Shown here one piece after another: positions 3,879-33,114 of a DNA stretch of 39,523 nt. The position numbers and the translations under genes are program-made. Each line of letters starts with the position of its first letter. Within the stretch, counting starts at the first letter, position 1. The notes under the pieces were generated by a model. That model saw only the letters and a list, made by a program, of their open reading frames with translations. It had not been told where the DNA came from and searched no databases. Source of the stretch: Candidatus Zixiibacteriota bacterium (GTDB taxonomy: Bacteria > Zixibacteria > MSB-5A5 > JAABVY01 > JAHJOQ01). The DNA lies in NCBI GenBank assembly GCA_018820315.1, contig JAHJOQ010000001.1, forward strand, positions 1 to 39,523. The letters are read 5' to 3'.

Positions 3879-3907
3879 TTGACAGCGAGGCAAGCAGCGA
3901 TTATCTT
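3879..3907 (+). promoter_or_regulatory. sigma70-type promoter of energy module A
   Basis: TTGACA (3879-3884) and TATCTT (3902-3907) are separated by exactly 17 bases. It lies about 350 bases upstream of the first module A gene, giving a long leader. The second module has a similarly placed promoter. Confidence 0.6.
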
Positions 3908-4254: not shown

Positions 4255-5352
4255 ATGGTTGTGCATCCTAACAACAATGCTGAAAACAGCAACAATGGTA
4301 ATCATGCAGAGAAGAGCGAATTGGGGAGACCGTACCGATTCATAATTGTCATCGTGCTGCCAGTAATATTGGCGTATTTCTTCATTGTCTTCTTCCCCAT
4401 TCCCAAGATAGCTATCGATTCTGAAACGCCGACTGACAGTCTGAACCTGAAGAGCTTGCCGCTTAATGCTGACGAACAGGCACAACTCAATGGTTCTTCC
4501 CCTATGTCGGGATCTTCTGAGTCCACACAGCCGGCCGGAGAAAGCCAGACGTTCATCCAAGGCGGCAATGAGAAGGCCCAGAAGACCGAAAGCGTTGGGG
4601 AGCGCCTTGCAATGGAACAGGATCCGCGTGGTTTGCAGATTTCCTACTGGGCAGCGGACTATTATGCGAAGGTTGTCTTCTGGGTTTACTATGGACTGAT
4701 GATGATGAGCCTGATGCTTTTGGCCAGAATCGTCCTGTTTATCCTCGATATCCGCAGATTCCGGTTCTTCTTCCCCAAAAAGGAGGATATGAAAACACTG
4801 GAGGCAGACCTTGCGGCTCTCCCCAAAGACAAACGCTGGGATAAGTTGGAGGAGAAAGCAGGTGAAGCTGTTCCAGTCGGAATATGTTCAAGAATATTGC
4901 AGAAGCTCGGAATGAGGTCGAGGAACCTCACTCTCGAATCGACATCACATTTCTGGAGTATACTTAAGGGTCTTGTTACAAGTGATGTTCTCAAAAAGAA
5001 CAAGAACAACGATTATTATTCTGCCTACGTGGTGAGTGCTGTGAACACAGTCTGGAGAGAAATCCAACCGGCCAAGATTCTGGAATCGATAATGCAGGCA
5101 TCTCCGGCAGTCGGCTTCTTTGGAACGCTGATCGGGCTTCTCTTCATATTTACCAGAAGCGAAGGTGCAGGCGCCAATCTGGCCGGAACCCCCGAGTTTG
5201 CAGTCGGCTTGAGAGTTGCAATCATCACGAGTCTCTGGGGATTGTTCAATCTCGGGCTGGCCGTACTGATCCGGTTTGGATCAGGCTACCTTGGCAACTG
5301 GTATTCATCTAAGATGGTCGCAAAGGCGAAGCGTCTGTGGTTGATGCTGTGA
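4255..5352 (+). CDS. MotA/TolQ/ExbB-family proton-channel protein, module A
   Basis: This 365-residue inner-membrane protein matches the MotA/TolQ/ExbB channel family in its last two TM helices: ASPAVGFFGTLIGLLFIF (about 282-299) and GLRVAIITSLWGLFNLGLAV (about 318-337). In TolQ/ExbB these form the ion-conducting pentamer with ExbD/TolR. Two more helices are predicted at about 29-50 and 139-164. An 85-residue Ser/Gln/Glu-rich periplasmic loop separates them, and a cytoplasmic domain of about 115 residues follows. The extra N-terminal helix and the loop are unlike standard three-TM TolQ/ExbB. GGAGG lies seven bases before the ATG. It is followed by ExbD-like and TonB-like genes and has a close paralog at 9872. 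The driving ion and the output are unknown. Confidence 0.85.
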   Translation: MVVHPNNNAENSNNGNHAEKSELGRPYRFIIVIVLPVILAYFFIVFFPIPKIAIDSETPTDSLNLKSLPLNADEQAQLNGSSPMSGSSESTQPAGESQTFIQGGNEKAQKTESVGERLAMEQDPRGLQISYWAADYYAKVVFWVYYGLMMMSLMLLARIVLFILDIRRFRFFFPKKEDMKTLEADLAALPKDKRWDKLEEKAGEAVPVGICSRILQKLGMRSRNLTLESTSHFWSILKGLVTSDVLKKNKNNDYYSAYVVSAVNTVWREIQPAKILESIMQASPAVGFFGTLIGLLFIFTRSEGAGANLAGTPEFAVGLRVAIITSLWGLFNLGLAVLIRFGSGYLGNWYSSKMVAKAKRLWLML

Positions 5353-5378
5353 TGTAAATGCAGATGAGGATATGACCA

Positions 5379-5867
5379 ATGCGTGTTGAAGATGATGATT
5401 TCTCGCTCGGTAATTTCGCTATGGGTGCAGCGGATGTTGCATTCATATTGCTCTTTGTTTTCCTGTTTCTCGCGGGGGCAAATGAGACCTACGATCTTGT
5501 CCGAGTTCCATACAAGACTGAAGACGCGAATGTTGATAAGCTTGACACTATCCTATTCCATATTTCCGTGCAGATCGACTCCGGGGAAATCGAGAGAAGT
5601 AGAATGCAAATCAACTTTAGGGGAGATCCTCAGGATTCAACAACTTGGTTTTTTCCGAATAAGAATCTTGGGTCTCCGACCTTTCACTCAGCGTTAGCAG
5701 ATACAATAGAGTCATTCGTAGAGCTAAATCCGACACCTCCGGAGGACACACTTCGAATCGCTATCTTTAGCGATGTGACGTCGCGATATGGCTTCGTTGC
5801 TGCCGTTCTTGCTGCGTGCAAGATGAAATCATACGACTGTTACTTGGTTTTCAAGACGGAAGATTGA
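5379..5867 (+). CDS. ExbD/TolR-like protein, module A
   Basis: This 162-residue protein has the ExbD/TolR layout: a short acidic cytoplasmic N-terminus, one TM helix (about 17-35, AADVAFILLFVFLFLAG) with a conserved Asp at residue 19, and a periplasmic domain. The Asp is at the place of the essential TM aspartate of ExbD/TolR/MotB. The C-terminal block RYGFVAAVLAACKMKSYDCY corresponds in pattern to the YGxVVxVMDAAKxAG region of ExbD. Overall similarity to classic ExbD is low; the call rests on topology, the Asp and the neighbours. It starts 26 bases after the channel gene and has a paralog at 10848 with the Asp at the same residue number. Confidence 0.8.
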   Translation: MRVEDDDFSLGNFAMGAADVAFILLFVFLFLAGANETYDLVRVPYKTEDANVDKLDTILFHISVQIDSGEIERSRMQINFRGDPQDSTTWFFPNKNLGSPTFHSALADTIESFVELNPTPPEDTLRIAIFSDVTSRYGFVAAVLAACKMKSYDCYLVFKTED

Positions 5868-5912
5868 CCCGCTCATTTGCAATTGCAGCGGACTCATTCA
5901 TGAGGTTCTGAC

Positions 5913-6965
5913 ATGAGGACTTTACCGGGCCCCACAACAGATCTGAAGCTTGAAGCCGTACTGGAAAGCGTGTCTTCAAGCACGGTTGTTGCACCTGATG
6001 CAAGAACCGATTCAGTACCATCGGTTGTGGCTGCGCTTCTAAGTCTGTTACTTGTGTTTGTGTTCTTACTTCTAATGCCCGACCATGAGCCCGACCGCGC
6101 GCAGCAGCAGGTGCATCGCCTAACTGACGCATATGTGTACGAGGTGACTCCCGTGGAGCCACCAGAAGTGCACGTAAATAAGGTAAAGGTTCCAAAAGTG
6201 AAGCCGCAAATTGCGGATCCCATGGAGGATCCAAAGATGATCGTCCCCAATGATCCGCTTGTCCTTAATCGACCGAAGGAGTTGGAACCAGTAGTAGTAG
6301 TTGATGATCCAGATGTCGAGAAGATATACAAGGATGTGCCGGTATTTGCCAGAAGTGATGACCTCCCATACCAGAGACCCCCAAAGGATGAAGTGATTCT
6401 GCCTCCTGTGGACTCTCTGATTCACCCGCCTAGTGGGAATGGGGATATTGATGATATCGGACCTCCCCGAGGTCCTAAGCACGACACCGACCCTGTCCTC
6501 GTCGTGGAAGAAGATGATATTATATATATTCTGGAAGAAAATTCACTACCATCGATACCTCCTGTTGACGACACCGTACCGACTAGAGGTGGACTTGACG
6601 AGCTTGTCGAGCCGCCATATGACCCTGCCTGTTTTGCTATTGTCAACATATATTTGAGGAACTGCGTGATTGATCTCTTCACGAACAGGATAGATTCGTA
6701 TGAGCGCTCGATATTCGGCAATGGGAGAATCACTGTTTCAGCTGTCAATTCTGACAGTATGCGAATTGTAGTAAGGATTGGAAGCGATCAAGTCACAGTG
6801 AATACCTCTAAGTCGGGGGCAGAAGACCTGAGCGATCCGAATTTCATTGTGCCAGAGCCAGTCCCCAGTACAAGGGAGGCGTACACCGAAGCGCTCATGT
6901 TGTCCGCAAAAGGGCTATGTGAGATGTTGGGAGATGAGAACTGTTTGAATGAATTGGAATTGTAA
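5913..6965 (+). CDS. TonB-like periplasm-spanning protein, module A
   Basis: This 350-residue protein has the TonB/TolA plan: a cytoplasmic N-terminus, a single TM helix (about 36-55), then a long Pro/Val/Asp-rich periplasmic stretch (about 60-235, with PEVHVNKVKVPKVKP-type repeats). A compact C-terminal domain (about 238-350) follows. That domain is not recognisable as the TonB or TolA fold. Its marks are YLRNCVIDLF (Cys251) and LCEMLGDENCLN (Cys336, Cys344), which are shared with the module B paralog at 11412. The three shared cysteines in an oxidising compartment could form disulfides or bind a cofactor. GAGG lies seven bases before the ATG. It probably couples the channel to an outer-membrane or cell-wall partner (inference). 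Confidence 0.7.
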   Translation: MRTLPGPTTDLKLEAVLESVSSSTVVAPDARTDSVPSVVAALLSLLLVFVFLLLMPDHEPDRAQQQVHRLTDAYVYEVTPVEPPEVHVNKVKVPKVKPQIADPMEDPKMIVPNDPLVLNRPKELEPVVVVDDPDVEKIYKDVPVFARSDDLPYQRPPKDEVILPPVDSLIHPPSGNGDIDDIGPPRGPKHDTDPVLVVEEDDIIYILEENSLPSIPPVDDTVPTRGGLDELVEPPYDPACFAIVNIYLRNCVIDLFTNRIDSYERSIFGNGRITVSAVNSDSMRIVVRIGSDQVTVNTSKSGAEDLSDPNFIVPEPVPSTREAYTEALMLSAKGLCEMLGDENCLNELEL

Positions 6966-6980
6966 AGGAAGGTGAGAAAG

Positions 6981-8162
6981 ATGCAATTGAGAAAGCAGCA
7001 GAGACCGAAAGCGACGATTCTCGTCATCGCGTTGTTACTCAGTACTCTTGTCACTGCACATTTGCAGGCGAAAACGGATGGTGCGGACGATGATATCAGC
7101 ATGGGGCTCTTCTTCGCCCACTGGGGGGTCCCCGATATGCAGCAGTTGGTAGAAATGAGGCAGCAATGGCGTATGGAGCAGGACACAAGCACGGTCAAGA
7201 ACCTAAGCGTCCTGGCGACATTTAATCTGAATGAGGCTGACTTTCTGATTTCATTGAACAAACAGATGGTGTTGCCGAGCAGCGACAGGAACTTAGATGG
7301 ATTGCATGCCGTAATGCTCCAACTCTATGGGCGACTAGTTGATGAAATGTATCAGCATGAAGCTGATGAAGTCGCAACCTCGAATGTGCCATATTATGTG
7401 CGACAGTCAGTGCGTGATTTGATCCTAGCTTCCGCATTGCTGGGGAATTTCAACGCTCCCGCGCCCCTTCTCGATTGCTTGATGAGGCGGGCTATTGATT
7501 TCTCGGTATTTGACACGACGAGCGGCTTTCTTGCTACGGTCAGAGATGTTCTTGGTCCCGAATTCCCGAATGTTCATGGTGCATCGAATCTCATTGCCGC
7601 GATATACACGAATGCCGAGATTGGGAAACTCCAAGACGGCTCCCCAGAAAGGCAACTGTGCCTCGAGGCGTGCAAGCAATCTGCAGAAGCTGCGGTGGCG
7701 TACCTCAGCAGTGATTATTGTTCTTCAATAGCTCATTTTCTATTAGCTAAGAGACTAGCTAATGATCAAAAGGACTTGGCATGGGGGCACTTTCTCGAAA
7801 GCATTGATCTCAGCAGTGATTCGAGCGATGTGAAAGCATTGTCGCTCGCGCCGTTCTTCCACAAAGACGTATATGTACAGGAAGCGGTTGCTTTTACATC
7901 AACCTATTTCAAGTATCTCTTTGAAGATCGTCGTTATTTGGAGATCGCAACATGTGCTAAGAGGTTGCTCGGCTGCAAGTCTGGAGATAACAAGTTTCAG
8001 CAGCGCATCAGCCAAAGGTCGATTGACTGGCTGAAGAAGTCGATGCGAGTTCTCTATGACGAGGAGAGATTTCAGTTGTATAATCAGCTCGACGAGGAGC
8101 TGCAGCATTTCCATGAACTCTATAACCCGGCAACTAATGTCATCGTCGACGAACAGCAATGA
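6981..8162 (+). CDS. exported helical (TPR-like) protein, module A
   Basis: This protein has about 393 residues and a signal peptide (a basic start, then ATILVIALLLSTLVTAHLQA). The mature part is nearly all helical with repeat-like helix pairs (for example AVAYLSSDYCSSIAHFLLAK and YFKYLFEDRRYLEIATCAKR), suggesting a TPR-like solenoid. No enzyme motif is visible. I start at the ATG at 6981, which has AAGGAAGG eight bases upstream; a GTG nine bases earlier falls inside the ribosome site. It begins 15 bases after the TonB-like gene and ends 13 bases before the next exported protein, so all five module A genes look co-transcribed. Module B has no counterpart. Confidence 0.65.
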   Translation: MQLRKQQRPKATILVIALLLSTLVTAHLQAKTDGADDDISMGLFFAHWGVPDMQQLVEMRQQWRMEQDTSTVKNLSVLATFNLNEADFLISLNKQMVLPSSDRNLDGLHAVMLQLYGRLVDEMYQHEADEVATSNVPYYVRQSVRDLILASALLGNFNAPAPLLDCLMRRAIDFSVFDTTSGFLATVRDVLGPEFPNVHGASNLIAAIYTNAEIGKLQDGSPERQLCLEACKQSAEAAVAYLSSDYCSSIAHFLLAKRLANDQKDLAWGHFLESIDLSSDSSDVKALSLAPFFHKDVYVQEAVAFTSTYFKYLFEDRRYLEIATCAKRLLGCKSGDNKFQQRISQRSIDWLKKSMRVLYDEERFQLYNQLDEELQHFHELYNPATNVIVDEQQ

Positions 8163-8175
8163 TTTGGAGGGTAAC

Positions 8176-9291
8176 ATGAATCGAATCAAACTAAGAGACA
8201 GATTCGCAATAGCGGTTGCGATCGGCTTGCTGTTGTCTGCCGGAGGCGCGACAGCGAAGGTGGGAGAGATGGAAGACATGAGTCTTGACATCCGAGAATA
8301 TCGAGCAGTTGCAGGCGACATGGATAATACCAACGACAAGATATTTCTGTCGGATCTGGCGATTCAGAGCATAATGAAGCAGGAATCCCTGTGGGATAAG
8401 GCGCCTCAAAAGGATCAGAAACTCAATGATCTATTGGCGGTCTCGTATGCCAATTTCATTTTCCTTCAGTACAAGCTGGACAATCCATCCTGGGCACGGT
8501 GGGGTCTATCAGCGCTGGAAACGCATTCGTCAGATTTCCTGTCGACAGTTGATGAGGTTACAGGTATCACATTCCAGGAGCAGCTGGACCCAATCAAGAA
8601 TAGCTGGCTGAACGGATTTGCGGAGTGCACGTTCTATAATGAACTCGTGCCGGCAAAGGGGCTGACCAATCTTCAGGTTCGTCTTGTCAAGCAGGACCAA
8701 CTGATGATATCTGAGAAGGAAAAGTACATCATCACGGTAGCCGAACACTATCTCAACAGGGAACTTAGAATGGGATGTCAGATGATTCCTTTCGTCATAT
8801 GTCTCCCGCCCGGTGAATATAGAGTCGTCGACGACACTGAGAAGTTCTATCCCAAGGAGTTCACTGCCGTCGCAAAGGTAGAAGACAGGGAGGGGCAGTA
8901 TCTCTATATGACTCCACCGTACGGGTTCAATTTTGTTCCCATCGCAAAGGTTTATAACGCGAGCGACAGCAGCTACTATCTTGATACTCTCTCTTGTCAG
9001 GAATTCGAGCTTGTGCGCTATCAGGAAGGGCCTGTCAACGATTTTGATAATGTAGAATTCGGGCGGTATCTGTTCCGCGTCAATCCACCGTTCAAGATTG
9101 TTGACGACCGGAAGAAGCTGATCATACCGAGGGATGAATTTGGACTTGACTATCTCGAAAAGCACAGCGAGCTGATTCCTCCCGAGGAGTATGATGTAAT
9201 TGTCGTGCAGAAAAACGAAGCTCTCATCTACACTCTGATTTCCGGGACGATCACATCGAAGCCGAAGACCGGAGGTTCGGATCGCTATTAG
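8176..9291 (+). CDS. exported protein of unknown function, module A
   Basis: This 371-residue protein has a signal peptide (MNRIKLRDRFAIAVAIGLLLSAGGATA). GGAGG five bases before the ATG fixes the start, although the open frame runs 40 codons further upstream inside the preceding gene. The first half of the mature protein is helical. The second half (about 170-371) has aromatic-rich strands with LPPGEYRVVDD and YLFRVNPPFKIVDD, possibly two related beta units. I do not recognise the family. Its place as the last gene of the module suggests a periplasmic or outer-membrane partner of the TonB-like protein (inference). Confidence 0.6.
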   Translation: MNRIKLRDRFAIAVAIGLLLSAGGATAKVGEMEDMSLDIREYRAVAGDMDNTNDKIFLSDLAIQSIMKQESLWDKAPQKDQKLNDLLAVSYANFIFLQYKLDNPSWARWGLSALETHSSDFLSTVDEVTGITFQEQLDPIKNSWLNGFAECTFYNELVPAKGLTNLQVRLVKQDQLMISEKEKYIITVAEHYLNRELRMGCQMIPFVICLPPGEYRVVDDTEKFYPKEFTAVAKVEDREGQYLYMTPPYGFNFVPIAKVYNASDSSYYLDTLSCQEFELVRYQEGPVNDFDNVEFGRYLFRVNPPFKIVDDRKKLIIPRDEFGLDYLEKHSELIPPEEYDVIVVQKNEALIYTLISGTITSKPKTGGSDRY

Positions 9292-9478
9292 GTAATTAGG
9301 TCGAACGGATCGTCTGATTATATGCTGGCAGATTGAGGGATTGCATCAGATGTGTCGCTGACGCGAATGATCATTGTGCCGAGCGGTCCTGGATAAACCA
9401 GTGCAGCCATTCTGCATTATCGAGTTTGATCCGGCGATGAAAGAAAGCCCTGCGCCATTTTGTCATTGCACAAATGAC

Positions 9479-9507
9479 TTGACATTGTGAACGGATGCTG
9501 ATATAAT
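9479..9507 (+). promoter_or_regulatory. consensus sigma70 promoter of energy module B
   Basis: TTGACA (9479-9484) and TATAAT (9502-9507) are separated by 17 bases, a perfect consensus in both boxes. The predicted transcript starts near 9514, about 360 bases before the first module B gene. The bases from 9292 to 9478, after the last module A gene, show no gene. Confidence 0.8.
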
Positions 9508-9871
9508 ATTGCAAAGAAAAAAGTAATATACGAAGAGTTTCGGAATAAGGGTACGGTCAGTTTATCTGACGAAGGGGTAGTTGTCAGAGACCACTTGAGG
9601 GTCTTTGGTTCGAATTTCGTTTGTGATTCCGGTCGCTGATTGCCCAGCGGGGAAGCATCTTTGCCGACGATGCGGGTTGTGAATCGCACGCACGTCCGAA
9701 CGATAAGTACAAACCAGAAGCTTCTCCTGTGGCATACTCAGCGCGCAGATGTTGCATGCGCCGTCGACCCAAATCACACGACCATAAAGGAGGAAGGCTG
9801 CAAAGAGTCCTACAGTTTTCATATGCATGAATAATCGATCAGGGGGCTTGAGAGAGTGTGGGAGGAGAAGG
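9508..9871 (+). other. long untranslated leader of module B
   Basis: No gene is supported in this leader. A plus frame of 64 codons (9640-9834) lacks a ribosome site. A minus frame that looks a little like a signal peptide has no Shine-Dalgarno and would run against the strong promoter. The 3' end carries GGAGGAG six bases before the channel gene ATG at 9872. Small inverted pieces (TCTGAC/GTCAGA, and AGACC/GGTCT just after) occur early in the leader. Confidence 0.4.
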
Positions 9872-10828
9872 ATGGCGGAGGATACCCGTCCAAAAAGAAT
9901 AAGAGGGAAAATCATGCGGTTTATTAGGGCGTATCTTTTCAATTCAAAAGGAACCAAGTTCCCGAGAGTTGCGGCTCTCTGGGTGCTCTCCGCAATATTG
10001 TCTTATTCCTTGGTAAGTGTCCTCCACGATGAAGGGAGAGAGCGTTTCGAGGAACTCAAAAGGATACACGAAACTTTCCCGACGCCGGTATCCGCGATCG
10101 ATTACGCCGAAATGAAGGCCGATCTTGAGGCAAATGAAGAAGCTGTCCATATCGATCCGAGCAGTTTCTTTTTGTCTTCGACTGTCCAAAGCAGCTACAA
10201 GTTGCTTATTTCGATCGGCTATTTCCTGCTGGCGCTCATGACTATCATGATGTTTCTGCGGTTTGGGTTATTCGTCGGGCGATATACACTTGGAAGGCCA
10301 AAGTTCTATCCGAAGGATGTCGAACTGTCGCGTCTTCTTGAAGGGAAAGACAACGGGCTGACATGGTTAGATCTTCAGCAGCTAGTGTTCGAACAGGCTA
10401 AAGATCCGCAACCTCTTCATATATGGAGAATAATGGGTGAAAGCATCTCATCTAGCACCGTATCGGCGGGCGAACGCACTGATGTACTCTTATCCTACAC
10501 CAAAAGGGCGATAGATCGATTGATGATGGATATTGGACCACAGAGGCTTTATGATGCGGTTGCAGCCGCGTCCCCAGCTGTTGGCTTCACGGGTACGCTC
10601 TTGGGGTTATTGTACATCTTCTCGAGTTCTAGCCAGTTGCAATATGGGAGCATGGGTGGAGATGCTGCGTTCAATGTCGGCCTCAGGATCGCGATTGTCA
10701 CTAGTCTATGGGGACTGGCGAATCTCACGTTAGCAGTGCTCTTGGACTATTTCACCGGCTTTCTAACTGACAAAAAAGCTGCTGAAATGGAGAACTTGGC
10801 CAAGTCCTTGGTGGAGAAATTAAGGTAA
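9872..10828 (+). CDS. MotA/TolQ/ExbB-family proton-channel protein, module B
   Basis: This 318-residue paralog of the gene at 4255 has TM helices at about 33-51, 111-138, 233-250 and 270-292. The last two carry the family core (ASPAVGFTGTLLGLLYIF and GLRIAIVTSLWGLANLTLAV), nearly identical to module A. As there, an additional N-terminal helix and a charged periplasmic loop (about 52-108) precede the channel core, and the cytoplasmic domain is about 95 residues. The start at the ATG preceded by GGAGGAG replaces a longer frame beginning 15 codons upstream without a ribosome site. It is followed by ExbD-like and TonB-like genes, so the pair-plus-arm arrangement is repeated. Confidence 0.85.
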   Translation: MAEDTRPKRIRGKIMRFIRAYLFNSKGTKFPRVAALWVLSAILSYSLVSVLHDEGRERFEELKRIHETFPTPVSAIDYAEMKADLEANEEAVHIDPSSFFLSSTVQSSYKLLISIGYFLLALMTIMMFLRFGLFVGRYTLGRPKFYPKDVELSRLLEGKDNGLTWLDLQQLVFEQAKDPQPLHIWRIMGESISSSTVSAGERTDVLLSYTKRAIDRLMMDIGPQRLYDAVAAASPAVGFTGTLLGLLYIFSSSSQLQYGSMGGDAAFNVGLRIAIVTSLWGLANLTLAVLLDYFTGFLTDKKAAEMENLAKSLVEKLR

Positions 10829-10847
10829 AGCAGGAGCGGTAGCCGGT

Positions 10848-11348
10848 ATGAGCAGACGAGGAAGTAAGTCAACATTGAAGTACTTCATAATGGGAGCATC
10901 TGATATTATGTTTGTCCTCCTGTTCTATTTTATGATGGTCGGAGGTGGTAAACCCAATGAGGAATCCGCGCTAAGGCTTCCGACCATATCATGGAATTCA
11001 CGATCTGATTTTATGGAAAACACTCCATGCAAAATTGATGTCTACATTCCCGCTGCTGGCTCAGCAGAGAGAAATCACGTGAGTATGACCTTGAACAGGT
11101 GGGACTCAGACGAGACGAAAAACGAAGTGGTTTTTGATGTGCAGGAAGCAGGGACTGACAGCCTGCGATTGAAGATGGCTGATGCCCTGAGCAAGTCGGT
11201 TGGAGTTTCATCTGGGCTAGCGGCGGATTCCGTGTGCGTCCTAATCCGCAGTGAACCAGGCGCAATCTATGGCTTTGTTGCTGCCGTGATTGCCGCGTGC
11301 AAAGACAGTGGCTATCGTTGTTTCCTGATGTTCGAGAAGAGTCAATGA
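10848..11348 (+). CDS. ExbD/TolR-like protein, module B
   Basis: This 166-residue protein has a single N-terminal TM helix containing MGASDIMFVLLFYF, with the Asp at residue 19 exactly as in the module A paralog. The periplasmic domain ends in IYGFVAAVIAACKDSGYRCF, matching the YGFVAAVxAACK block of module A. In ExbD/TolR the TM aspartate carries the proton. The N-terminus is basic here (MSRRGSKS) but acidic in module A, so the two modules may differ in cytoplasmic contacts. It lies 19 bases after the channel gene and has AGGAG upstream. Confidence 0.8.
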   Translation: MSRRGSKSTLKYFIMGASDIMFVLLFYFMMVGGGKPNEESALRLPTISWNSRSDFMENTPCKIDVYIPAAGSAERNHVSMTLNRWDSDETKNEVVFDVQEAGTDSLRLKMADALSKSVGVSSGLAADSVCVLIRSEPGAIYGFVAAVIAACKDSGYRCFLMFEKSQ

Positions 11349-11411
11349 AAGAACCACTGGACTATTTGCACCATTCACTATTGCATTCAATTCCAAGGAA
11401 GATACTACGAA

Positions 11412-12314
11412 GTGACATTCGACAGTCAAGAGGAGTGGAGTCCCCTTACTGACCTCGCAGTCGTCGAGGTATTAGACAAGGCAGACTATTACAGTGGCGA
11501 CACTGCTTTGGTGAGCGGTCTAGACTGGGTCGCCAAAATCGTGTCGCTAATGCTGCCAGTGCTGCTGGGCACAATTCCCGCTGCCCTCCTAATAACCAGT
11601 AGCGCGCAAGAACCTCGGGAACCAATCAGAATTAATATTCCCGAGTATCTTCCCGAGCACACGGCAATAGAAGTATCGGTTGCTGAGTTGGTAGGGGATC
11701 AAGGGGACCTGCATCCGCAAGGGGGAGGAGCAGGCGGAGCAGGAGATCAATCATCGTCGGGCCAAGGCAACGAACTTCCCAAAGCAAGTAAAACAGATCA
11801 GGAAATCCTTGATTCCCAATACGAAACTTATCACGCTCCGGCTGAGGACAGTCTTCGCAGCAGTAACCGTGCATATGATGATACTCTGTTGCGTCGGAAT
11901 TCAGCCGATGTAGTTCAAGAGGTTGCTTCTGATTCATCAGATATCTACAAGGCTCTGGCCAGAACTGGCAATCTGACTGTGGTTGGCACATACCTAAGAA
12001 TTTGCATCCTGGACATCTTCAGGGATCCTACGCGGTTGAAGAAGGTGGCAGAAGTAAGTATCATGAGCGAAGGTAAGATGCCGAGTCATAGAGGGCAAAT
12101 GAGAATCTCGATTTCGACGCCCGAGAGATCAGCCACCATTTGGGTCGACGAAGAAGAGGCGAAAGACAAGAACAATTACTGGTTTGCAAAGCCGGATCCG
12201 AAACCTAAGTCCGTGGATGAATACATTGATGTATTGCTGTTTGTTACGCGACGATTGTGCGAAATGCTAAATGATGAAAACTGTCTAAATCATCTAGGTG
12301 AGAAAGGGCGATAA
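11412..12314 (+). CDS. TonB-like periplasm-spanning protein, module B
   Basis: This 300-residue protein starts at GTG, with AAGGAAG about ten bases upstream. It has a cytoplasmic N-terminus of 40 residues and a TM helix at about 41-62. A low-complexity linker (Gly/Ala/Ser/Gln-rich, about 95-130) and a C-terminal domain (about 188-300) follow. The domain shares YLRICILDIF (Cys198) and LCEMLNDENCLN (Cys283, Cys291) with the module A protein, while the linkers are unrelated. This is the pattern expected if the end domain is the functional contact. It is not a recognisable TonB C-terminal domain. No exported proteins follow; the next operon is metabolic. Confidence 0.7.
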   Translation: MTFDSQEEWSPLTDLAVVEVLDKADYYSGDTALVSGLDWVAKIVSLMLPVLLGTIPAALLITSSAQEPREPIRINIPEYLPEHTAIEVSVAELVGDQGDLHPQGGGAGGAGDQSSSGQGNELPKASKTDQEILDSQYETYHAPAEDSLRSSNRAYDDTLLRRNSADVVQEVASDSSDIYKALARTGNLTVVGTYLRICILDIFRDPTRLKKVAEVSIMSEGKMPSHRGQMRISISTPERSATIWVDEEEAKDKNNYWFAKPDPKPKSVDEYIDVLLFVTRRLCEMLNDENCLNHLGEKGR

Positions 12315-12425
12315 CCAGCGTTTCTTTGTATACACTCCCCATTTCCTTTCTTGACAAATCATTTCCTGATGATGACATTGGTGTGTTTGTGTGATGGCGT
12401 GTCTGCTAATCGAAAGGAGATCGAT

Positions 12426-13883
12426 GTGAGGCCAACTGTCCGGTTTCTCTCCGATAGACTAATCGAAAAAATCATCGATGAGGCTCGACACCTGATCTGT
12501 CACCTCGGCGTCGAAGTACATAACGATAGCGTGGTCTCTCTGCTCGCAGATCATGGTGCAAGAATCGACAAGAACAAAGGTCGCGTGTATTACACTCAGG
12601 AGATCATCGACAGGTCTCTTGCGACTGCTCCTGATTCGATCAAGCTCTACGATTCAATCGGCGACGAGGCGGTTGATTTATCCGGTTTCAATGTGAACTT
12701 CACTCCCGGTTCGGCAGCCATTAACATTCTTGACAATGACTCAATCGCGGCTCGCAAACCGACTGCGGCGGACTATGTTAGATTTACTAAGTTAATGTGT
12801 CAGATGAAGCATATTGCGTCCCAGGCGACAGCTATGATTCCGTGCGATGTACATGAAATGATCTCAGACAGCTATCGTCTCTTTCTGAGCCTAATGTTCT
12901 GCGAGAAGCCTGTTGTGACTGGTGCATTCACAATCGAGGCATTCGAGATAATGAAAAACCTGCAGCTCGCTGTGCGGGGATCTGAGGAGGCGCTTGCGGC
13001 TAAACCTCTGACGCTGTTCTCATGCTGTCCGACTTCTCCGCTAAAATGGAGCAATGTCACATCGCAGAATGTTGTCGACTGCGCAAAGTATTCGATTCCG
13101 GTCGAGTTTATTTCCATGCCGCTTTCGGGTTTCATGGCGCCGGTGACGCTTGTCGGATCGCTTGTTCAGCATACGGCCGAGACGTTGAGCGGGATTGCAA
13201 TCAGCCAATTAACCCGACCGGGGACTCCGATTCTATATGGTGGGTCGCCGGCGATTTTTGATGTACGGTACGAGACTACTCCCATGGGAGCTGTCGGCAC
13301 GATGATGATGGATTGTGCCTACAATGAGGTAGGCAAGCATCTCGGTCTGCCGACCCAGGCATACATCGGGCTGAGCGACGCGAAACTTCTGGATGCGCAG
13401 GCAGGCCTCGAGACTTCGATGGGTGCGACTCTTGCGGCGCTGGCCGGAATCAACAATGTCTCCGGTCCCGGTATGCTCGATTTCGAAAGCTGTTTCAGTC
13501 TGGAGAAGCTCGTTCTGGACAACGAAATCTGTGGGATGACTCTGCGGATGGCTAAAGGCATCGAACCGAAGGAGGACTTCCCGGCGATGCCGAGGTTCGA
13601 GGAGATGATCAAGGAGGGGCATTTGCTGATTTCCGATCACACTCGCCGCTATCTCAGAGATGAAGTCTATTTTCCGGGACCATCGATAGACCGCGCTAAC
13701 AGGTCGAGATGGCAAGAGGAGGGGAGTCTTACTCTCGGCGATCGAGCCCATCAAGAAGTCGAGCGCGCCATCACTTCGTGGGCAGGTATCCGACTCCCCG
13801 ATGACATCAAGAACGAGATGACGAAACTGATGGAAGCCGAAGCCCGCCGCTATGGGATGGAAAGGCTGCCTGCAGTAGAATGA
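12426..13883 (+). CDS. MttB-family corrinoid methyltransferase (non-pyrrolysine)
   Basis: This 485-residue member of the trimethylamine methyltransferase (MttB) family is a TIM-barrel enzyme that moves a methyl group from a quaternary or tertiary amine to a corrinoid protein. Family marks include TPGSAAINILDND, RKPTAADYVRFTKLM, VSGPGMLDFESCFSLEKLV and the length. No in-frame TAG is present, so it belongs with the non-pyrrolysine members such as glycine-betaine or proline-betaine methyltransferases; the substrate cannot be read from sequence. The GTG at 12426 has AAAGGAG six bases upstream; the frame opens earlier but without a ribosome site. Its stop overlaps the next start by four bases (ATGA), so it is translationally coupled to the activation-like gene. 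Confidence 0.85.
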   Translation: MRPTVRFLSDRLIEKIIDEARHLICHLGVEVHNDSVVSLLADHGARIDKNKGRVYYTQEIIDRSLATAPDSIKLYDSIGDEAVDLSGFNVNFTPGSAAINILDNDSIAARKPTAADYVRFTKLMCQMKHIASQATAMIPCDVHEMISDSYRLFLSLMFCEKPVVTGAFTIEAFEIMKNLQLAVRGSEEALAAKPLTLFSCCPTSPLKWSNVTSQNVVDCAKYSIPVEFISMPLSGFMAPVTLVGSLVQHTAETLSGIAISQLTRPGTPILYGGSPAIFDVRYETTPMGAVGTMMMDCAYNEVGKHLGLPTQAYIGLSDAKLLDAQAGLETSMGATLAALAGINNVSGPGMLDFESCFSLEKLVLDNEICGMTLRMAKGIEPKEDFPAMPRFEEMIKEGHLLISDHTRRYLRDEVYFPGPSIDRANRSRWQEEGSLTLGDRAHQEVERAITSWAGIRLPDDIKNEMTKLMEAEARRYGMERLPAVE

Positions 13884-14596
13884 AGAGACGTGTTGTCAGT
13901 ATAGGCATCAATGAGACCGTTCCATCGGCTGAATCTGTGCTTACAGCTCAAGGTGTGCCGGAAGGTGCATCGACGGATAAGAGGGTCCAGCGGCTGGCAG
14001 ACGATGCTGTGTCAATCTATCGTCAACTTGCTGAACCTGCCGGAATTCTGGCGGGGATCAGCATGTCGGATTGTGAAAATATTTATGTCGGTGAAAGTCT
14101 GAACGAAGATGTGACACCGCTGGAGAGCATTTTCAAATCTGCCGACACATTATGTCTGTTTGCTGTAACTATTGGATCGAAGATAACGAATAGGATATCT
14201 GATCTGTTCAATCAGCGCGAATTCGCACTCGGTTCGATGCTCGATTCTGCGGCGTCGGAAGGCACTGAGAACGCTGCTCAATGGATTGAGAACTACTACG
14301 TTGACTATCTGACATCTGTCGACAAGTGTGATGAATCAATCGGTGTGCTGCGTTTCAGCCCTGGCTATTGCGGATGGCACGTCAGCGCCCAGAAAAAGCT
14401 CTTTCGATATCTCGACCCGGCAGCGATCGGCATTAGCTTGACAGAGAGCTGTCTCATGCAGCCGTTGAAGTCAATCTCGGGCGTGATAATATCCGGTAAG
14501 AAAGAGATATTCGATTTCGAAGATACATTTCCATTCTGTTCGGAGTGCAGCGATCATTCCTGTACCGAGCGGATAAGAGCTGTAATGGAACATTAG
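13880..14596 (+). CDS. MetH-activation-domain-like protein
   Basis: This 238-residue protein resembles the S-adenosylmethionine-binding activation domain found at the C-terminus of cobalamin-dependent methionine synthase. The block RFSPGYCGWH, then LFRYLD, GISLTESCLMQPLKSISG, follows the family pattern (R...PGY... and LTES..M.P..SVSG). In MetH this domain reduces and remethylates cob(II)alamin. Free-standing versions occur beside corrinoid methyltransferases. A C-terminal cluster FPFCSECSDHSC (Cys220, 223, 228) is additional and could bind a metal or Fe-S centre (inference). It overlaps the MttB-family gene by four bases and lies 22 bases before the corrinoid protein gene. Confidence 0.75.
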   Translation: MKRRVVSIGINETVPSAESVLTAQGVPEGASTDKRVQRLADDAVSIYRQLAEPAGILAGISMSDCENIYVGESLNEDVTPLESIFKSADTLCLFAVTIGSKITNRISDLFNQREFALGSMLDSAASEGTENAAQWIENYYVDYLTSVDKCDESIGVLRFSPGYCGWHVSAQKKLFRYLDPAAIGISLTESCLMQPLKSISGVIISGKKEIFDFEDTFPFCSECSDHSCTERIRAVMEH

Positions 14597-14618
14597 AGAG
14601 TTTGTTGGAGATATCAAG

Positions 14619-15266
14619 ATGGAAACTTTGACTCAACTTTCCGAGAGTTTGCAGCGTGGTGAAACCGAAAATGTCGCTGAGTTGACGGATCGCGCAATCG
14701 CCGAGGGGCTTGCTCCTCAGACGATACTCGACGATGGTCTGATAGCGGCCATGGCGGTAATAGGGGAGAAGTTCAGGGTTCATGAAATATTCCTTCCCGA
14801 TGTGCTTCTCGCTGCACGGGCGATGTACGCCGGAATGGACAAGTTGAAGCCGTTGCTTATCAAGGAGGGCGTGCCAACGATCGGGAAGGTAGTCATGGGT
14901 TCGGTGCAGGGGGATCTTCACGATATCGGCAAGAATATAGTCAGCATAATGCTCAAGGGCGCTGGGTTTGAGGTGGTCGATCTCGGCAACGATGTTTCGC
15001 CGGAGAAGTTCATTGAATCGGCCGATAGAGAAGGCGCGAGGATCATCGGTTTGTCCGCGCTGCTGACGACTACGATGCCTGTTATGAAGAAAGTGGTCGA
15101 CCTCGTGAAAGAGAGCGGAATGTCCGACAGGCTAAAAGTCATCATCGGCGGAGCTCCGGTCTCTGCCGATTACGCCAGAGAGATCGGAGCCGATGCCTAC
15201 TGTTTTGATGGCATGAGTGCGGTCGATTGTGTGAAAAAGCATTTGGGTGTTGGTCGACATGACTGA
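14619..15266 (+). CDS. methyltransferase corrinoid protein
   Basis: This 215-residue cobalamin-binding protein is of the MtbC/MttC/MetH-cap type. An N-terminal helical cap domain (about 1-85) is followed by a B12-binding Rossmann-like domain. The DLHDIGKN motif (residues 99-106, DxHxxG) provides the lower-ligand His101, and GLSALLTTTM and IIGGAPVS are the matching later signatures. It carries the methyl group between the MttB-family enzyme and the homocysteine enzyme encoded next to it. GGAG lies upstream of the ATG. Its 3' end overlaps the next gene by eight bases. Confidence 0.93.
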   Translation: METLTQLSESLQRGETENVAELTDRAIAEGLAPQTILDDGLIAAMAVIGEKFRVHEIFLPDVLLAARAMYAGMDKLKPLLIKEGVPTIGKVVMGSVQGDLHDIGKNIVSIMLKGAGFEVVDLGNDVSPEKFIESADREGARIIGLSALLTTTMPVMKKVVDLVKESGMSDRLKVIIGGAPVSADYAREIGADAYCFDGMSAVDCVKKHLGVGRHD

Positions 15267-16149
15267 TTTGCTACAGCGGATAGACAGCGGTGAAATCCTC
15301 ATCACTGACGGCGCCATGGGAACGATGCTCTTCGAGCGAGGTCTCGAGAGCGGACAGTGCCCGGAAAGACTGAATTTGGATCGGATCGATATTCTCGAAG
15401 ACATCGCGAAATCATATCTGAAGGCGGGCGCAGACATCGTCCAGACTAATACGTTTGGCGGTTCGCCATTGAAGCTTGCGCTCTATTCTCTGGATGCCCG
15501 AACAGAAGAGATTAACCGAAATGCGGTGCGCGCAGTGCGCAATGCGGTTGGCCATGCGGCATATGTTTCTGCCTCCTGTGGTCCCTGTGGAATGTTGTTG
15601 CTGCCGTACGGCGATGCTGCGCCTGACGATGTACTGCTGGGATTCGAGAGGCAACTCGAAGCAATCACTGCCGAGGGCGTCGATATGATATGTATCGAGA
15701 CTATGATTGATCTTGGTGAGGCTACTCTCGCTATCAAAGCGGCAAAGAGGATCGCACCTTCGATTCCGATAGCAGCTACCATGACGTTCGATTCGACGCC
15801 AAAGGGATTCTTTACAATCATGGGCGTATCGATCCAACAAGCGGTGGATGGATTGACCGAGGCCGGCGCAGACATCCTCGGATCGAATTGTGGCAACGGC
15901 ATAGAGAACATGGTGAAGATCGCTGTGGAGTACCGCAGGCGTACAGAACTTCCATTAATAATCCAATCGAACGCCGGACTGCCTGAGATGCAGGATGGAA
16001 AGCTCATTTATCGCGAATCCCCCGAATTCATGGCAGAGAATTGCAGGCTTCTGATAGATGCCGGGGTGTCGATAATCGGCGGTTGCTGCGGAACGACTCC
16101 AGCGCACATTTCGGCATTCAGGCGTGTTGTCGATAGCCTGCGAAGTTAG
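15259..16149 (+). CDS. homocysteine S-methyltransferase domain protein
   Basis: This 296-residue single-domain homocysteine methyltransferase is equivalent to the N-terminal module of MetH and to BHMT/MmuM. It has the TDGAMGTMLFERG start, QTNTFGGSP, GSNCGNG (first zinc cysteine) and GGCCGTTPAHI (the two final zinc cysteines), so the zinc site that activates homocysteine is complete. It overlaps the corrinoid gene by eight bases. I use the ATG at 15259, although a GTG four codons earlier is possible. With its neighbours it could take methyl groups from the corrinoid protein to make methionine. No pterin-binding domain is present in it or in the operon. Confidence 0.9.
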   Translation: MTDLLQRIDSGEILITDGAMGTMLFERGLESGQCPERLNLDRIDILEDIAKSYLKAGADIVQTNTFGGSPLKLALYSLDARTEEINRNAVRAVRNAVGHAAYVSASCGPCGMLLLPYGDAAPDDVLLGFERQLEAITAEGVDMICIETMIDLGEATLAIKAAKRIAPSIPIAATMTFDSTPKGFFTIMGVSIQQAVDGLTEAGADILGSNCGNGIENMVKIAVEYRRRTELPLIIQSNAGLPEMQDGKLIYRESPEFMAENCRLLIDAGVSIIGGCCGTTPAHISAFRRVVDSLRS

Positions 16150-23295: not shown

Positions 23296-23766
23296 ATGGT
23301 GAACAAGACTCAACTTCTGGATACATTATTTGCTCGGATCGAGGCGCTGGTGGAGTCACCGATTCCCGTCTCGGAGAAACTTCTCGGTATCTGCGATATG
23401 CTCAGGGAAGTGGTGCCCCACTATGATTGGGTAGGATTCTACTTAGTGGATGGGGAGAACAAGAGAGAACTTGTGCTCGGACCTTTCGCCGGGGAGCCTA
23501 CAGATCATGTCAGAATACCATTCGGCAAAGGCATTTGTGGGCAGGCTGCAGAAAGAGGTGAGACATTTGTTGTTCAGGATATCTCCGAGCAGACCAATTA
23601 TCTCTCCTGCAGCATAGATGTCAAATCGGAAATTGTCCTTCCAATGTTCAAGGGCGGCGAACTAATCGGCGAGCTTGACATAGACTCCCATCAGACCGCG
23701 CCATTCACGGATGAAGACGAGGGATTTCTTGAGAAAGTTGCCGCTAAGGCTGCGTGTCTGCTTTGA
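23296..23766 (+). CDS. GAF-domain protein, free methionine-(R)-sulfoxide reductase-like
   Basis: This protein of about 156 residues follows the fRMsr (YebR/MsrC) family along its length: HYDWVGFYLVDG, LVLGPFAG, VRIPFGKGICGQAA, SEIVLPM and GELDIDS. fRMsr reduces free methionine-(R)-sulfoxide. The GICG cysteine and the YLSC cysteine 24 residues later are kept. The first family cysteine, just before VRIP, is replaced by His. That cysteine is the usual resolving residue, so activity may be altered or use another thiol. The ATG at 23296 is chosen; a GTG three codons earlier is possible, and neither has a strong ribosome site. Confidence 0.8.
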   Translation: MVNKTQLLDTLFARIEALVESPIPVSEKLLGICDMLREVVPHYDWVGFYLVDGENKRELVLGPFAGEPTDHVRIPFGKGICGQAAERGETFVVQDISEQTNYLSCSIDVKSEIVLPMFKGGELIGELDIDSHQTAPFTDEDEGFLEKVAAKAACLL

Positions 23767-23849
23767 ACTTCAGGACAACGTCAGGCGCGCACAAGCGGAG
23801 TGTTCATATAGTTGCATCAATTGGCACACTCTATTGGAGGAGGTGTTTC

Positions 23850-24734
23850 GTGAGCAGATGTTTGCTGATGGCGTTAGTTGTGGCGCTTATCATGGTCGGA
23901 GGATGTATTGACTACCAGGAAACGTTGAAATTCAACGAGGATGGTTCCGGTACATTGAAGATTCGATACGCGCTCGATAAGCAGTATCTCAATGAGATGG
24001 AACAGATGGGTGAAAAGATGGGCGGCGAGGAGAGTGAAGAGCCGGAGAATGCTGATGAGGATATGTGGACTCGTGAGGAGATCGAGGAAGCATTGAAGGT
24101 GGAAGATACCGGCGTCGAGTTGATTGGATATGAAGCAAGTGAGGACGAAGAATGGAAAATTTGGGTGATTGAGTTTTCATTCGATAACTTGGCTGATTTT
24201 GAGATGCTCTCACGCTCTCTTAATGCAGAAGCTGACGAAGATGGCGAGCAGGCTGATATTGACAGGTCATACACGCGGCAGGATGACGGCACCTGGCTCT
24301 ATCAACATGACTTTGGCGGTGGAATGGGCGAAGAAGGTGGATCTTCTCAGTTCGACACGTCCGACATGGACTCCGATGACAGTGATGCTGAGGACATGCC
24401 AACGGCTGAGGAGCTGGCGGAAGCGATGAAGCAGATGCAGGAGGCCATGCAGGAGTACTCCGATGAGGAGGATGCCGAGGGGGGCGATGCGAACCCGGAA
24501 GCCGGGGAGCAGGAGGAGCAAATGGAGGAAGCTATGCAGAATCTGAACTCTGGTCTCGAATCGATGTTTGCCGGCATGGAAAATGCCAGAGTGAAGGTCA
24601 CGGCGGAGTTTCCCGGAAAGATCATAGAATCGAATGCCACCAGTGTCGACGGCAATACCGCCACCTGGGAATTTCGCGGAAAAGCTGTGATACACGATGA
24701 TATTCCGATGATGACGGCAAAGGTTCAGCCGTAG
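23850..24734 (+). CDS. acidic lipoprotein, LppM/DUF3153-like, copy 1
   Basis: This 294-residue lipoprotein starts at GTG, with GGAGGAGG six bases upstream. Its signal peptide ends in MVGGC, followed by IDYQETLKFNEDGSGTLKIR. The 'dose of N-DGSGT-' strand pattern recalls LppM/DUF3153-type lipoproteins. A long Glu/Asp/Met/Gln-rich low-complexity region (about 155-255) separates an N-terminal from a C-terminal beta region (VKVTAEFPGKIIESNATSVDG). A paralog lies 48 bases downstream with the same start and end blocks. The function is unknown, and it is probably anchored in the outer or inner membrane facing the periplasm. Confidence 0.75.
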   Translation: MSRCLLMALVVALIMVGGCIDYQETLKFNEDGSGTLKIRYALDKQYLNEMEQMGEKMGGEESEEPENADEDMWTREEIEEALKVEDTGVELIGYEASEDEEWKIWVIEFSFDNLADFEMLSRSLNAEADEDGEQADIDRSYTRQDDGTWLYQHDFGGGMGEEGGSSQFDTSDMDSDDSDAEDMPTAEELAEAMKQMQEAMQEYSDEEDAEGGDANPEAGEQEEQMEEAMQNLNSGLESMFAGMENARVKVTAEFPGKIIESNATSVDGNTATWEFRGKAVIHDDIPMMTAKVQP

Positions 24735-24782
24735 GGGAGATAGATCGAGTCCAATGAACAATGTCAGGAGGAGGTGCAGTTT

Positions 24783-25670
24783 ATGCATAGACTCGCATTG
24801 GTTGCTCTCGCAGCAGCGCTAGCGGTTTTTGGCGGCTGCATCGATTATCAAGAGACAATATCTCTGAACGCTGACGGTTCCGGGACGCTCAAGATTCGCC
24901 ATGCGCTCGACAGCCAGTATATGGATTTGATGCGGCAGGCGCTCGCAAGCTGGGAAGCTGAGGATGACAATGTGCCTGAAAAATCGGAGGTCAAGAGCGA
25001 TGAGATCTGGACTCGACAACAGATACAAAAGGCACTGAAATGCAATCATTGCGTTGAGTTGATGGACTACGACATAAACGATGAGGGGCGATGGAGAGTC
25101 TGGAGCATGGAGTTCTCATTCAAGGACATTTCAGGTGTCGAAGGCTTGCTGCGGAGTCTCAATGAGGAGTCGGTCTCTGAAAGGGGACTTGCTGACATGA
25201 AGAGGTCATTCACCAAGCAGACCGATGGCTCATGGCTCTTTCAGCACAGCTTAGGTACTCATCGCGAAGGAGGTTTGGAGAGCTCTGACATCTCTGGGAT
25301 AGAGATGCACCAAGAGGATTCTATGGGGATTCCTGCTGATGAGGAAATGGCCGGGTTGATAGATCGCTTTGAGGAAGCGACCGAAGATGATTCTCACGAT
25401 GTCTACGACCAGCAGGGAGAAGACGCGAAGAAAGAGCAGAATAGACTTCCGGAAGATAAAGACTCGGCTGCTCAAGCTTGGGACTCACTGCTCAATTCAC
25501 TTCCGGCCGAGATAGACAAAACGCATATTAAAATCACAGCGACATTCTCAGGTGAGATAGTCAAGTCGAATGCGACAAGCATCGAGGGCAACACCGCGGT
25601 CTGGGAATTTAGCGGACAGCGAGAGAGGGATAACGGCGGTCCATCGCTAGCTGCCACAATACAGCCATAA
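24783..25670 (+). CDS. acidic lipoprotein, LppM/DUF3153-like, copy 2
   Basis: This 295-residue paralog of the upstream gene has a signal peptide ending in VFGGC and then IDYQETISLNADGSGTLKIR. It also shares IWTRQQIQKALK, WSMEFSF, SLNEES, DGSWLFQHSLG and a C-terminal IVKSNATSIEGNTAVWEF block with copy 1. Differences are concentrated in the linker, where this copy lacks the strong Glu/Met run. ATG is chosen because GGAGGAGG lies eight bases upstream; a GTG three codons earlier is inside that site. Together the two look like a recent tandem duplication in one operon. Confidence 0.75.
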   Translation: MHRLALVALAAALAVFGGCIDYQETISLNADGSGTLKIRHALDSQYMDLMRQALASWEAEDDNVPEKSEVKSDEIWTRQQIQKALKCNHCVELMDYDINDEGRWRVWSMEFSFKDISGVEGLLRSLNEESVSERGLADMKRSFTKQTDGSWLFQHSLGTHREGGLESSDISGIEMHQEDSMGIPADEEMAGLIDRFEEATEDDSHDVYDQQGEDAKKEQNRLPEDKDSAAQAWDSLLNSLPAEIDKTHIKITATFSGEIVKSNATSIEGNTAVWEFSGQRERDNGGPSLAATIQP

Positions 25671-26248: not shown

Positions 26249-27538
26249 ATGCTAAGTCGAGCAAAGCGGTTCCTCGAGAGGATTAGCGTGGCAGCAATTT
26301 CCAATGGCAATAGCGGCAATCTTGCGAGCGCTGGAGGGTTCTACGCAAAGCCTCGGTCGAAACGTCTCCAGAGACAAAATGAGTTCCAGTTGACTTATCC
26401 ATGCGGGGCGGATTCTCACGAAGTCAGGATTGGTCTTTATCGGTTTCTGCGCGACCATGTACCATTGCTGAACGCGGCTATTTGGACATGGGTCAGAATG
26501 GCTGCGGGTCGTCCCGAATTTATGCTTTTCGACAGCAACGGCGAGCAAACTGAATCTGCCGAAGTGCGAGCGGTTGTTGACAGCCTTGCGCGGCGATTAT
26601 ATGATAACCGATATCAGAAGTTTGGGGGAATCGATGCTCTGCTCGTTGAGTTCTTCAACACCTTATTCACGACCGGTTCAGTATGTGGTGAACTTCTGGT
26701 AGATGCATCCGCCACCGGAGTGCAGAACTTCTATTTCATTGATCCGGCTACGATTCGATTCAAGCTTGAACGAACAGGCGAATGGCAGATGTTTCAGCAG
26801 ATTGATGATAGAAGAATTAGTCTCCATGCGCCGTCGACATACTTCTACGGACTCGATGCAAACTCGATTGAACCGTGGGGGCGCTCTCTGCTGTCAGCGG
26901 TGCCGTTTGCATCGCGAGTCGAGCAGGCACTTGTCAGGGATATGCACAGTAGCATGCATAACGCTGGCTATCATCGGCTGCACGTGAAGATCAAACCGCC
27001 AGATCGATTGGCAGGGGAGGATCAGAACGCGTATGTTGCGCGCGCCAACCAGTATTTCGATGAGACCCTCGGAATGATGAAGGATATTGAACCTGATGAT
27101 AATCCGGTCACTTGGGATGATGTTGACATCGACTATATAGGACCGGCATCGAAAATATCATCCTCATCCTCCTGGTACATCAATCACAAAGCCATGATAG
27201 AGGATATATGCGCGGGAACGCACCTTGCACCGTTCATGCTCGGATACTCATATGGATCATCGCGCACTTGGGCGGAGTTCAATTTTGAGTTGCTGCAGAG
27301 GCAGCTGCGCACCATTCAGGCCGCAGCTGTCAGGTTTCTGCGATGGATAACTTCGGTCGAATTTGCGCTGAAGGGGATCAGTGTCGAATGCAGATGGTCA
27401 TTCGATGACTCGATAAGCGTGGGTGTGCTCGAAAAAAGGCAGGCAGAGGCCATTCATATCGACAATGTCATCAAGAAGGCAGACGCAGGGCTTATCACTA
27501 CTGAAATAGCGAAAAAGGAACTCGGATGTCAGAGCTGA
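26249..27538 (+). CDS. phage portal protein
   Basis: This 429-residue protein has the layout of dsDNA phage portals. A basic N-terminus is followed by a wing region with ELLVDASATGVQNFYFIDP and STYFYGLDANSIEPWGRSLL. The stem and clip region contains VRDMHSSMHNAGYHR, and helices follow where LAPFMLGYSYGSSRTWAEF is typical of the portal core. The C-terminal helices (AIHIDNVIKKADAGLITTEIAKKELG) match the usual end of portals. It forms the dodecameric DNA entry ring at one capsid vertex. AAGGAG lies upstream of the ATG. It is encoded before the terminase, the reverse of the usual order. Confidence 0.85.
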   Translation: MLSRAKRFLERISVAAISNGNSGNLASAGGFYAKPRSKRLQRQNEFQLTYPCGADSHEVRIGLYRFLRDHVPLLNAAIWTWVRMAAGRPEFMLFDSNGEQTESAEVRAVVDSLARRLYDNRYQKFGGIDALLVEFFNTLFTTGSVCGELLVDASATGVQNFYFIDPATIRFKLERTGEWQMFQQIDDRRISLHAPSTYFYGLDANSIEPWGRSLLSAVPFASRVEQALVRDMHSSMHNAGYHRLHVKIKPPDRLAGEDQNAYVARANQYFDETLGMMKDIEPDDNPVTWDDVDIDYIGPASKISSSSSWYINHKAMIEDICAGTHLAPFMLGYSYGSSRTWAEFNFELLQRQLRTIQAAAVRFLRWITSVEFALKGISVECRWSFDDSISVGVLEKRQAEAIHIDNVIKKADAGLITTEIAKKELGCQS

Positions 27539-27606
27539 TCATATTCTAACTAAGTGGGAGCGTCCACATCACTCGATTCGCAAAACAGAACAGGTGGCGC
27601 AGAGCC

Positions 27607-28914: not shown

Positions 28915-28917
28915 AGA

Positions 28918-28940
28918 AACCCGGGCATAGTACCCGGGTT
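28918..28940. terminator. bidirectional hairpin after the terminase gene
   Basis: AACCCGGG (28918-28925) and CCCGGGTT (28933-28940) form an 8-bp stem with a 7-base loop, beginning three bases after the terminase stop. It would separate the portal/terminase pair from the convergent PEP-CTERM gene, and the minus side ends in TTTC. Confidence 0.65.
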
Positions 28941-28988
28941 CTATATCCAAGCTTTCATGTCTATCTCAGTAGCAGCGAAGACTCTTGC

Positions 28989-29372: not shown

Positions 29373-29642
29373 ATACACCTCACTGTCGATTTAAGCATCA
29401 TTGGCCACTGTATCAGCAATTCAGGTGCCAAAATTCATGCTGTTTGATGGCAGGCATAACCTCATGTGAAACGGATGTTTAACTACTGAAGTACCGGAGT
29501 TCATCCGACCGGATTATTGTAATATGTGCAGAAAATTGCATGATTGTGCCGGAACGAAGCTCTGAATAGAGCAGTGTGAATCCATTATTAACAACAGCTG
29601 AATGGTGATTGCCGACAGTCAGCTTTATCTGAAGGAGGAACT

Positions 29643-33099: not shown

Positions 33100-33114
33100 C
33101 GAAAGGAACTGACT

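Follow-up and report, generated by a model that had tools for sequence, protein, structure and literature searches.

The Agl-Glt/Nfs core complex combines the AglR-AglQ-AglS motor, the GltG arm and the proteins GltC, GltD and GltE (PMC3169522). In the Ton (ExbB-ExbD-TonB) and Tol-Pal (TolQ-TolR-TolA) systems, a motor-box strand follows the transmembrane (TM) helix of TolA or TonB, and a TM histidine in the SHLS motif is the grip of these arms on their motor (PMC12204202). Force transducers of the vWA type adjoin TolQR-like motors together with a TPR gene (PMC12204202). Here we report on a locus composed of parts of these kinds in a 39,523-nucleotide stretch of Candidatus Zixiibacteriota bacterium (assembly GCA_018820315.1, contig JAHJOQ010000001.1, positions 1 to 39,523, forward strand), hereafter the window. 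The locus consists of a five-gene operon, A-B-C-D-E (module 1, 4255-9291), followed by a diverged A'B'C' copy without D and E (module 2, 9872-12314), all on the + strand. We give a probability of about 0.7 to the reading that it encodes an undescribed trans-envelope force-transducing machine, driven by the proton motive force (PMF), that is Ton-, Tol- and Agl-Glt-like and a member of none of these systems. The reading frames named in the original prediction, which had described the locus from its letters as two tandem modules of channel, ExbD-like protein and TonB-like arm, are all present. The three-gene unit did not hold up: D and E, the next genes of the operon after C and conserved alongside it, had been missed.

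Gene A (4255..5352, +) encodes a four-TM ion channel subunit of the MotA/TolQ/ExbB type. Its product matches Pfam MotA_ExbB (PF01618) with 31.7 bits (cut-off 22.9; E 1.5e-7), and that of its diverged paralogue A' (9872..10828, +) scores 22.3 bits by hmmscan, just under the cut-off, and 24.5 bits in the genome search, over it, so that both channels do have the predicted MotA/TolQ core. The best PDB sequence match of the A profile is MotA (8gqy, E 6e-4), and profile-profile comparison links the motor parts to TolQ, MotA and ExbD. The cores of the two modules had been called nearly identical. The motifs quoted for them are present, GT and SLWGL being invariant in the A family alignment and the others largely so, but overall identity by BLAST is 29% for A/A', 31% for B/B' and about 30% for C/C' over the C-terminal domain. 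Thr220 and Ser255 (numbering of the copy on contig C40, see below) are invariant in the last two TM helices of A; we take them to occupy the threonine-ring positions of TolQ/ExbB. Like MotA, A has four hydrophobic segments. Its extra N-terminal TM helix, originally seen as part of a non-standard layout, is not unusual, as two hydrophobic segments precede the cytoplasmic domain in MotA and in the ordinary ExbB proteins of this genome and its relatives too. What differs in A is the long periplasmic loop after TM1, and what is non-standard in the layout as a whole lies in the D/E partners and the head of the arm.

The B (5379..5867, +) and B' (10848..11348, +) proteins are 162-166 aa long, with a single TM helix and an ExbD-like periplasmic part. 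As predicted, Asp19 lies in this helix in both; it is invariant across all B proteins and, in the profile match, aligns with the DIAFLLLIF helix of ExbD. B' is over the PF02472 cut-off (E 8.5e-6) and B is under it (E 0.0016). A pair of cysteines is invariant in the periplasmic domain of B, and three are invariant in the C head, which suggests that these residues may form disulphides in the periplasm. No OmpA-like peptidoglycan (PG)-binding domain was matched on B in Pfam. MotAB, GldLM and ZorAB belong to the same 5:2 motor family, and MotA shares the four hydrophobic segments with A; unlike them, the present locus has a B without PG-binding domain, an A without large cytoplasmic domain or tail, and a separate TonB-like arm. 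A flagellar stator (MotAB) identity was rejected, as there is no OmpA hit on B and the true motAB genes are elsewhere in the genome. Zorya-type anti-phage defence, with a ZorAB-like motor, was weighed because of a weak PADLOC match to ZorA (E 0.004-0.005) and a prophage about 14 kb downstream. The absence of a long cytoplasmic tail on A and of a PG-binding domain on B, the failure to match ZorC, ZorD or ZorE, and the periplasmic look of D and E make it the most improbable of the explanations considered.

In a tree with ExbB, TolQ and MotA, the A proteins grouped together as a clade of their own (99/99). When AglR was included, A and the channel of a second phylum (see below) formed a clade (93/93) and AglR joined ExbB (88/88). 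In these sequence trees, A and its distant kin are a lineage separate from ExbB, TolQ, AglR and MotA. Across 386 genomes, the A profile scored 374-524 bits within the family and 41 bits for the next best channels, found in two genomes of another small phylum. A search of PHROGs with A and A' gave no match.

The genome carries its housekeeping systems on other contigs: tolQ-tolR-tolA-tolB-pal on C86, exbB-exbD-exbD-tonB-tonB on C12, and motAB on both C73 and C74 (all named from their sequences). Since Tol-Pal, Ton and MotAB have loci of their own, the five-gene operon is not the housekeeping system. In agreement with the original prediction, the window itself showed no Tol, Ton or flagellar genes. 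On contig C12, a TonB-type domain followed by TPR-like sequence is encoded 3' of the two tonB genes of the ordinary Ton operon (L055, 3138-4517).

Gene C (5913..6965, +) encodes an arm of TonB-like topology, as had been proposed. A cytoplasmic N-terminal tail precedes its single TM helix, near residue 45-50; on the periplasmic side a linker leads to a conserved C-terminal domain, the head, whose fold is unfamiliar. Inspection of the sequence shows an FIIEIP-type, motor-box-like strand after the TM helix and then a Pro-rich linker. The C' protein (11412..12314, +) has the same topology, a similar motor-box segment, a shorter, Pro-poor linker and a C-terminal domain homologous to that of C. Neither protein was matched in Pfam or NCBIfam. 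The architecture shared with Ton and Tol (channel, Asp-bearing axle, and an arm with TM helix, motor box and linker) would also be expected of an ordinary, diverged Ton or Tol system, in which such a strand follows the TM helix of TolA/TonB (PMC12204202). Of 12 TolA/TonB-like proteins of Zixibacteria, however, 11 have the TM histidine, and none of the eight C proteins has it at the corresponding position. The C head does not align with TolA or TonB: its profile matches theirs at about 0%, whereas matches within the C family reach 97%. Further differences are the D/E partners and the long periplasmic loop of A, and no gene for a TonB-dependent receptor, TolB or Pal is adjacent. Given also the separate Tol-Pal and Ton operons, we regard a diverged Ton or Tol system as quite unlikely, and the original proposal of a dedicated force-transducing machine is supported by these separate loci, the lineage of the channel and a head unlike that of TolA/TonB.

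The C head and E were modelled with AlphaFold2 as single chains from shallow alignments. The C head model (mean pLDDT, predicted local distance difference test, 82.7; core about 90) comprises, in order, a helix, four strands, a short strand and two helices, with about 110 ordered residues. Compared with the PDB using Foldseek, in a search run without a TonB/TolA positive control, it gave nothing convincing (best E 0.12, query TM-scores below 0.3). The vWA-type transducers resemble this locus in having a motor, an arm of TonB topology with a non-TonB head and an accessory helical gene; they differ in that the C head matched no vWA fold by Foldseek or Pfam, C has no SHLS motif, and two accessory proteins are encoded here.

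These two proteins each have a hydrophobic start resembling a signal peptide and look periplasmic. D (6972..8162, +; about 390 aa) is, from its sequence, probably a helical repeat protein, and no match was found in Pfam, NCBIfam or the PDB. E (8176..9291, +) has a helical N-terminal half and a beta-rich C-terminal half with an LPPGEY motif; its model shows the same two halves at moderate confidence (62.6), and a fold search of the PDB gave no match. E is the most conserved part of the system (41% identity to relatives). Of 132 Zixibacteria genomes searched with profiles, the same seven contain D and E; six of these also yielded C and five A, the missing genes lying beyond contig ends. Wherever contigs allow, the order A-B-C-D-E is adjacent, and since the flanking genes vary between genomes, the five genes form a unit. 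The families hold three to ten sequences each. A scan of contigs from named genomes returned only two relatives, both Zixibacteria, and no relative was found in the viral contigs and plasmids searched. The other six genomes have one operon each. The two-module layout occurs in this genome only, so that the check suggested in the original prediction, a recurrent pairing of modules, fails, and it is the five genes that co-occur consistently.

A rare and patchy system (seven of 132 genomes) whose A tree does not track family membership could be a neutral cluster, that is, a motor operon that has picked up two unrelated periplasmic genes by chance or by transfer. Against this, on contigs sufficiently complete for a judgement D and E were always accompanied by motor genes, and the same composition recurs, with shuffled order, in another phylum. 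We therefore hold a neutral cluster to be highly unlikely.

In that second phylum, four of the seven genomes have a related channel. Around the two first-found channels are encoded an ExbD-like protein, a periplasmic protein that is long and looks helical, an E-like protein sharing the motif of E (YLPPGxY-type) and, in G165, a Pro-rich TM protein. The order is C-D-E-A-B where it can be read, with a lipoprotein gene before C in three genomes. Profile-profile comparison between the phyla gave 97.8% for A-A (E 8e-13) and 91% for B-B, and all 20 off-diagonal pairs of the five-by-five comparison were below 1%. As the composition is kept while the order is shuffled, the genes appear to be a working unit. 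The six-gene cassette lipoprotein-C-D-E-A-B was located at L111 (5257-11043), L130 (6721-12483) and L129; in the last of these B is present twice, and A, D and E seem to carry frameshifts. Neither the window nor the Zixibacteria loci yielded a protein similar to the second-phylum lipoprotein.

By composition, the locus comes closest to the Agl-Glt/Nfs core complex, known from Myxococcus among others, in which a PMF motor, a Pro-rich arm and helical periplasmic partners are likewise encoded together. For comparison, ten loci with GltG homologues were collected with NCBIfam NF033760, five of them from the second phylum; all genes other than gltG were named by position and similarity. Where complete, the second-phylum loci read gltD-gltE-aglR-aglQ-aglS-gltG-gltC and lie beside polysaccharide-export genes. 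At L160, L161, L162 and L163, polysaccharide export genes (beta-barrel-like, Wza-like and Wzc-like) come directly after core complexes of the Agl-Glt type, which suggests a Glt-type motor dedicated to surface polysaccharide at these loci.

The locus could accordingly be a remote branch of the machine that serves Myxococcus gliding and spore-coat assembly. The kinds of parts are the same (channel, ExbD-like protein, Pro-rich TonB-like arm, helical periplasmic proteins and, in the second phylum, a lipoprotein; PMC3169522), and a tree forcing A together with AglR was not rejected (approximately unbiased test, p-AU 0.107). The A profile matches AglR at 83.5% (E 8e-6), about as well as TolQ or MotA, and much less well than the second-phylum channel; in the tree AglR groups with ExbB and A with its own kin. 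Agl-Glt has AglQ and AglS where Zixibacteria has one ExbD-like protein, C is shorter than GltG at its N-terminus, and the remaining parts are not recognisably related: B against AglQ/AglS gave less than 1% in profile-profile comparison, the C-terminal domain of C against that of GltG 0.1%, and D and the Zixibacteria E against GltC, GltD and GltE at most 7%. Moreover, the phylum that is home to the cassette genomes holds GltG loci as well (G165, G310, G387 and G390). The five-gene machine would work like Agl-Glt, but its membership in that system is not supported; we judge a remote Agl-Glt branch unlikely, albeit the least unlikely of the alternatives.

Several points weigh against a separate machine shared by the two phyla. 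GltC shows a weak match (45%, 58 columns) to the helical N-terminal part of the E protein from the second phylum, which also speaks for an Agl-Glt origin. Between the phyla, C-C reached 92% over the TM helix and the Pro-rich linker only, where composition may inflate the value, and E-E 45% (E 2e-4) over 47 columns. In the genomes searched with the A profile, the E profile missed the E protein of the second phylum at E 0.001, so that this homology is remote at best, and D-D shows no sequence relation, the counterpart of D being assigned by position only. The data are from metagenome-assembled genomes, with several loci cut by contig ends; the function proposed here is read from homology and gene order.

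On the preferred reading of a separate PMF-driven machine, the drive would be of the 5:2 rotary-motor kind, with protons (or sodium) as the ion. A would form a pentamer in the inner membrane and a B dimer its central axle, binding ions through Asp19; ion flow through the A pentamer past Asp19 would turn or shift the motor. C would be anchored beside the motor by its TM helix, and its strand and linker would extend to a head that is pulled or turned. The helical D and the helical and beta-domain E would act as periplasmic adaptors engaged by this head, and may pass the force to a target in the outer membrane, at the surface or in the cell wall. Being conserved together with the head, D and E are likely to receive force from C. 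Stoichiometry, ion flow, contacts and work on the outer envelope are thus proposed by homology and gene order.

Module 2 would be an old A'B'C' paralogue, whose load may be the same D/E or something else. A further operon with the full gene order, cut only at the end of E, lies on contig C40 of the same genome and is its copy closest to the operons of other genomes (44-55% identity in A). The original claim of duplication is therefore only partly right, the genome having a full operon, an old three-gene paralogue beside it and a third, full-order operon elsewhere. The A+B+C tree placed modules 1 and 2 as sisters, and with an outgroup A' is basal to A and the rest, so that the two modules may or may not be direct sisters. 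A putative sigma-70-like promoter lies upstream of module 1 (3879..3907, +; TTGACA-17-TATCTT, 10/12 matches) and a putative extended sigma-70 promoter upstream of module 2 (9479..9507, +; TTGACA-17-TATAAT with TG, 12/12), about 365 bp 5' of the A' start; both are consensus matches only. The perfect extended consensus before module 2 suggests that this module is probably expressed on its own. The first ATG of A' is at 9827, and a start at 9872, which has a good ribosome-binding site, seems more likely. The leaders of the two modules show no similarity to each other.

Elsewhere in the window, a tRNA gene (Rfam RF00005, 3681-3753) lies just 5' of module 1. Module 2 is followed by a corrinoid methyl-transfer cassette (12351-16149) encoding an MttB-family methyltransferase, a B12-dependent activation-type domain, a B12-binding corrinoid protein and a homocysteine S-methyltransferase; an Rfam PYLIS_3 match falls within the MttB gene (13372-13470), although this gene contains no TAG in frame. 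A second local duplication, at 23754-25670, consists of two similar lipoprotein-like genes in tandem with a CIDYQET..NxDGSGTLKIR motif. The prophage-like block spans 26249-36921 and includes a portal (phrog_3753), a terminase large subunit (phrog_2), a major head protein (phrog_3922) and their neighbours. Short secreted proteins with a C-terminal sorting signal of the PEP-CTERM type are encoded at 284-1159 (confirmed by Pfam) and at 28989-29378 (recognised by eye).

According to recent surveys, many 5:2 motor systems remain undiscovered, and non-flagellar channels are very varied, some of them of unknown function (PMC12204202, PMC12505986). We would go one step further only tentatively, at slightly less than even odds, and propose a previously undescribed class of machine present in two phyla, with a separate motor lineage, a head fold not found in the PDB, two obligate periplasmic adaptors and a job performed by no known Ton, Tol, Glt or flagellar system. 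Because the parts recur in two unrelated phyla although their genes are arranged differently, the case for a functional unit is stronger than conserved order alone could make it. The arms described here suggest that the TonB/TolA head is replaceable. The locus gives a candidate parts list, consisting of a motor, an axle, an arm, two adaptors and, in one phylum, a lipoprotein, and thereby a defined set of proteins for expression and study.

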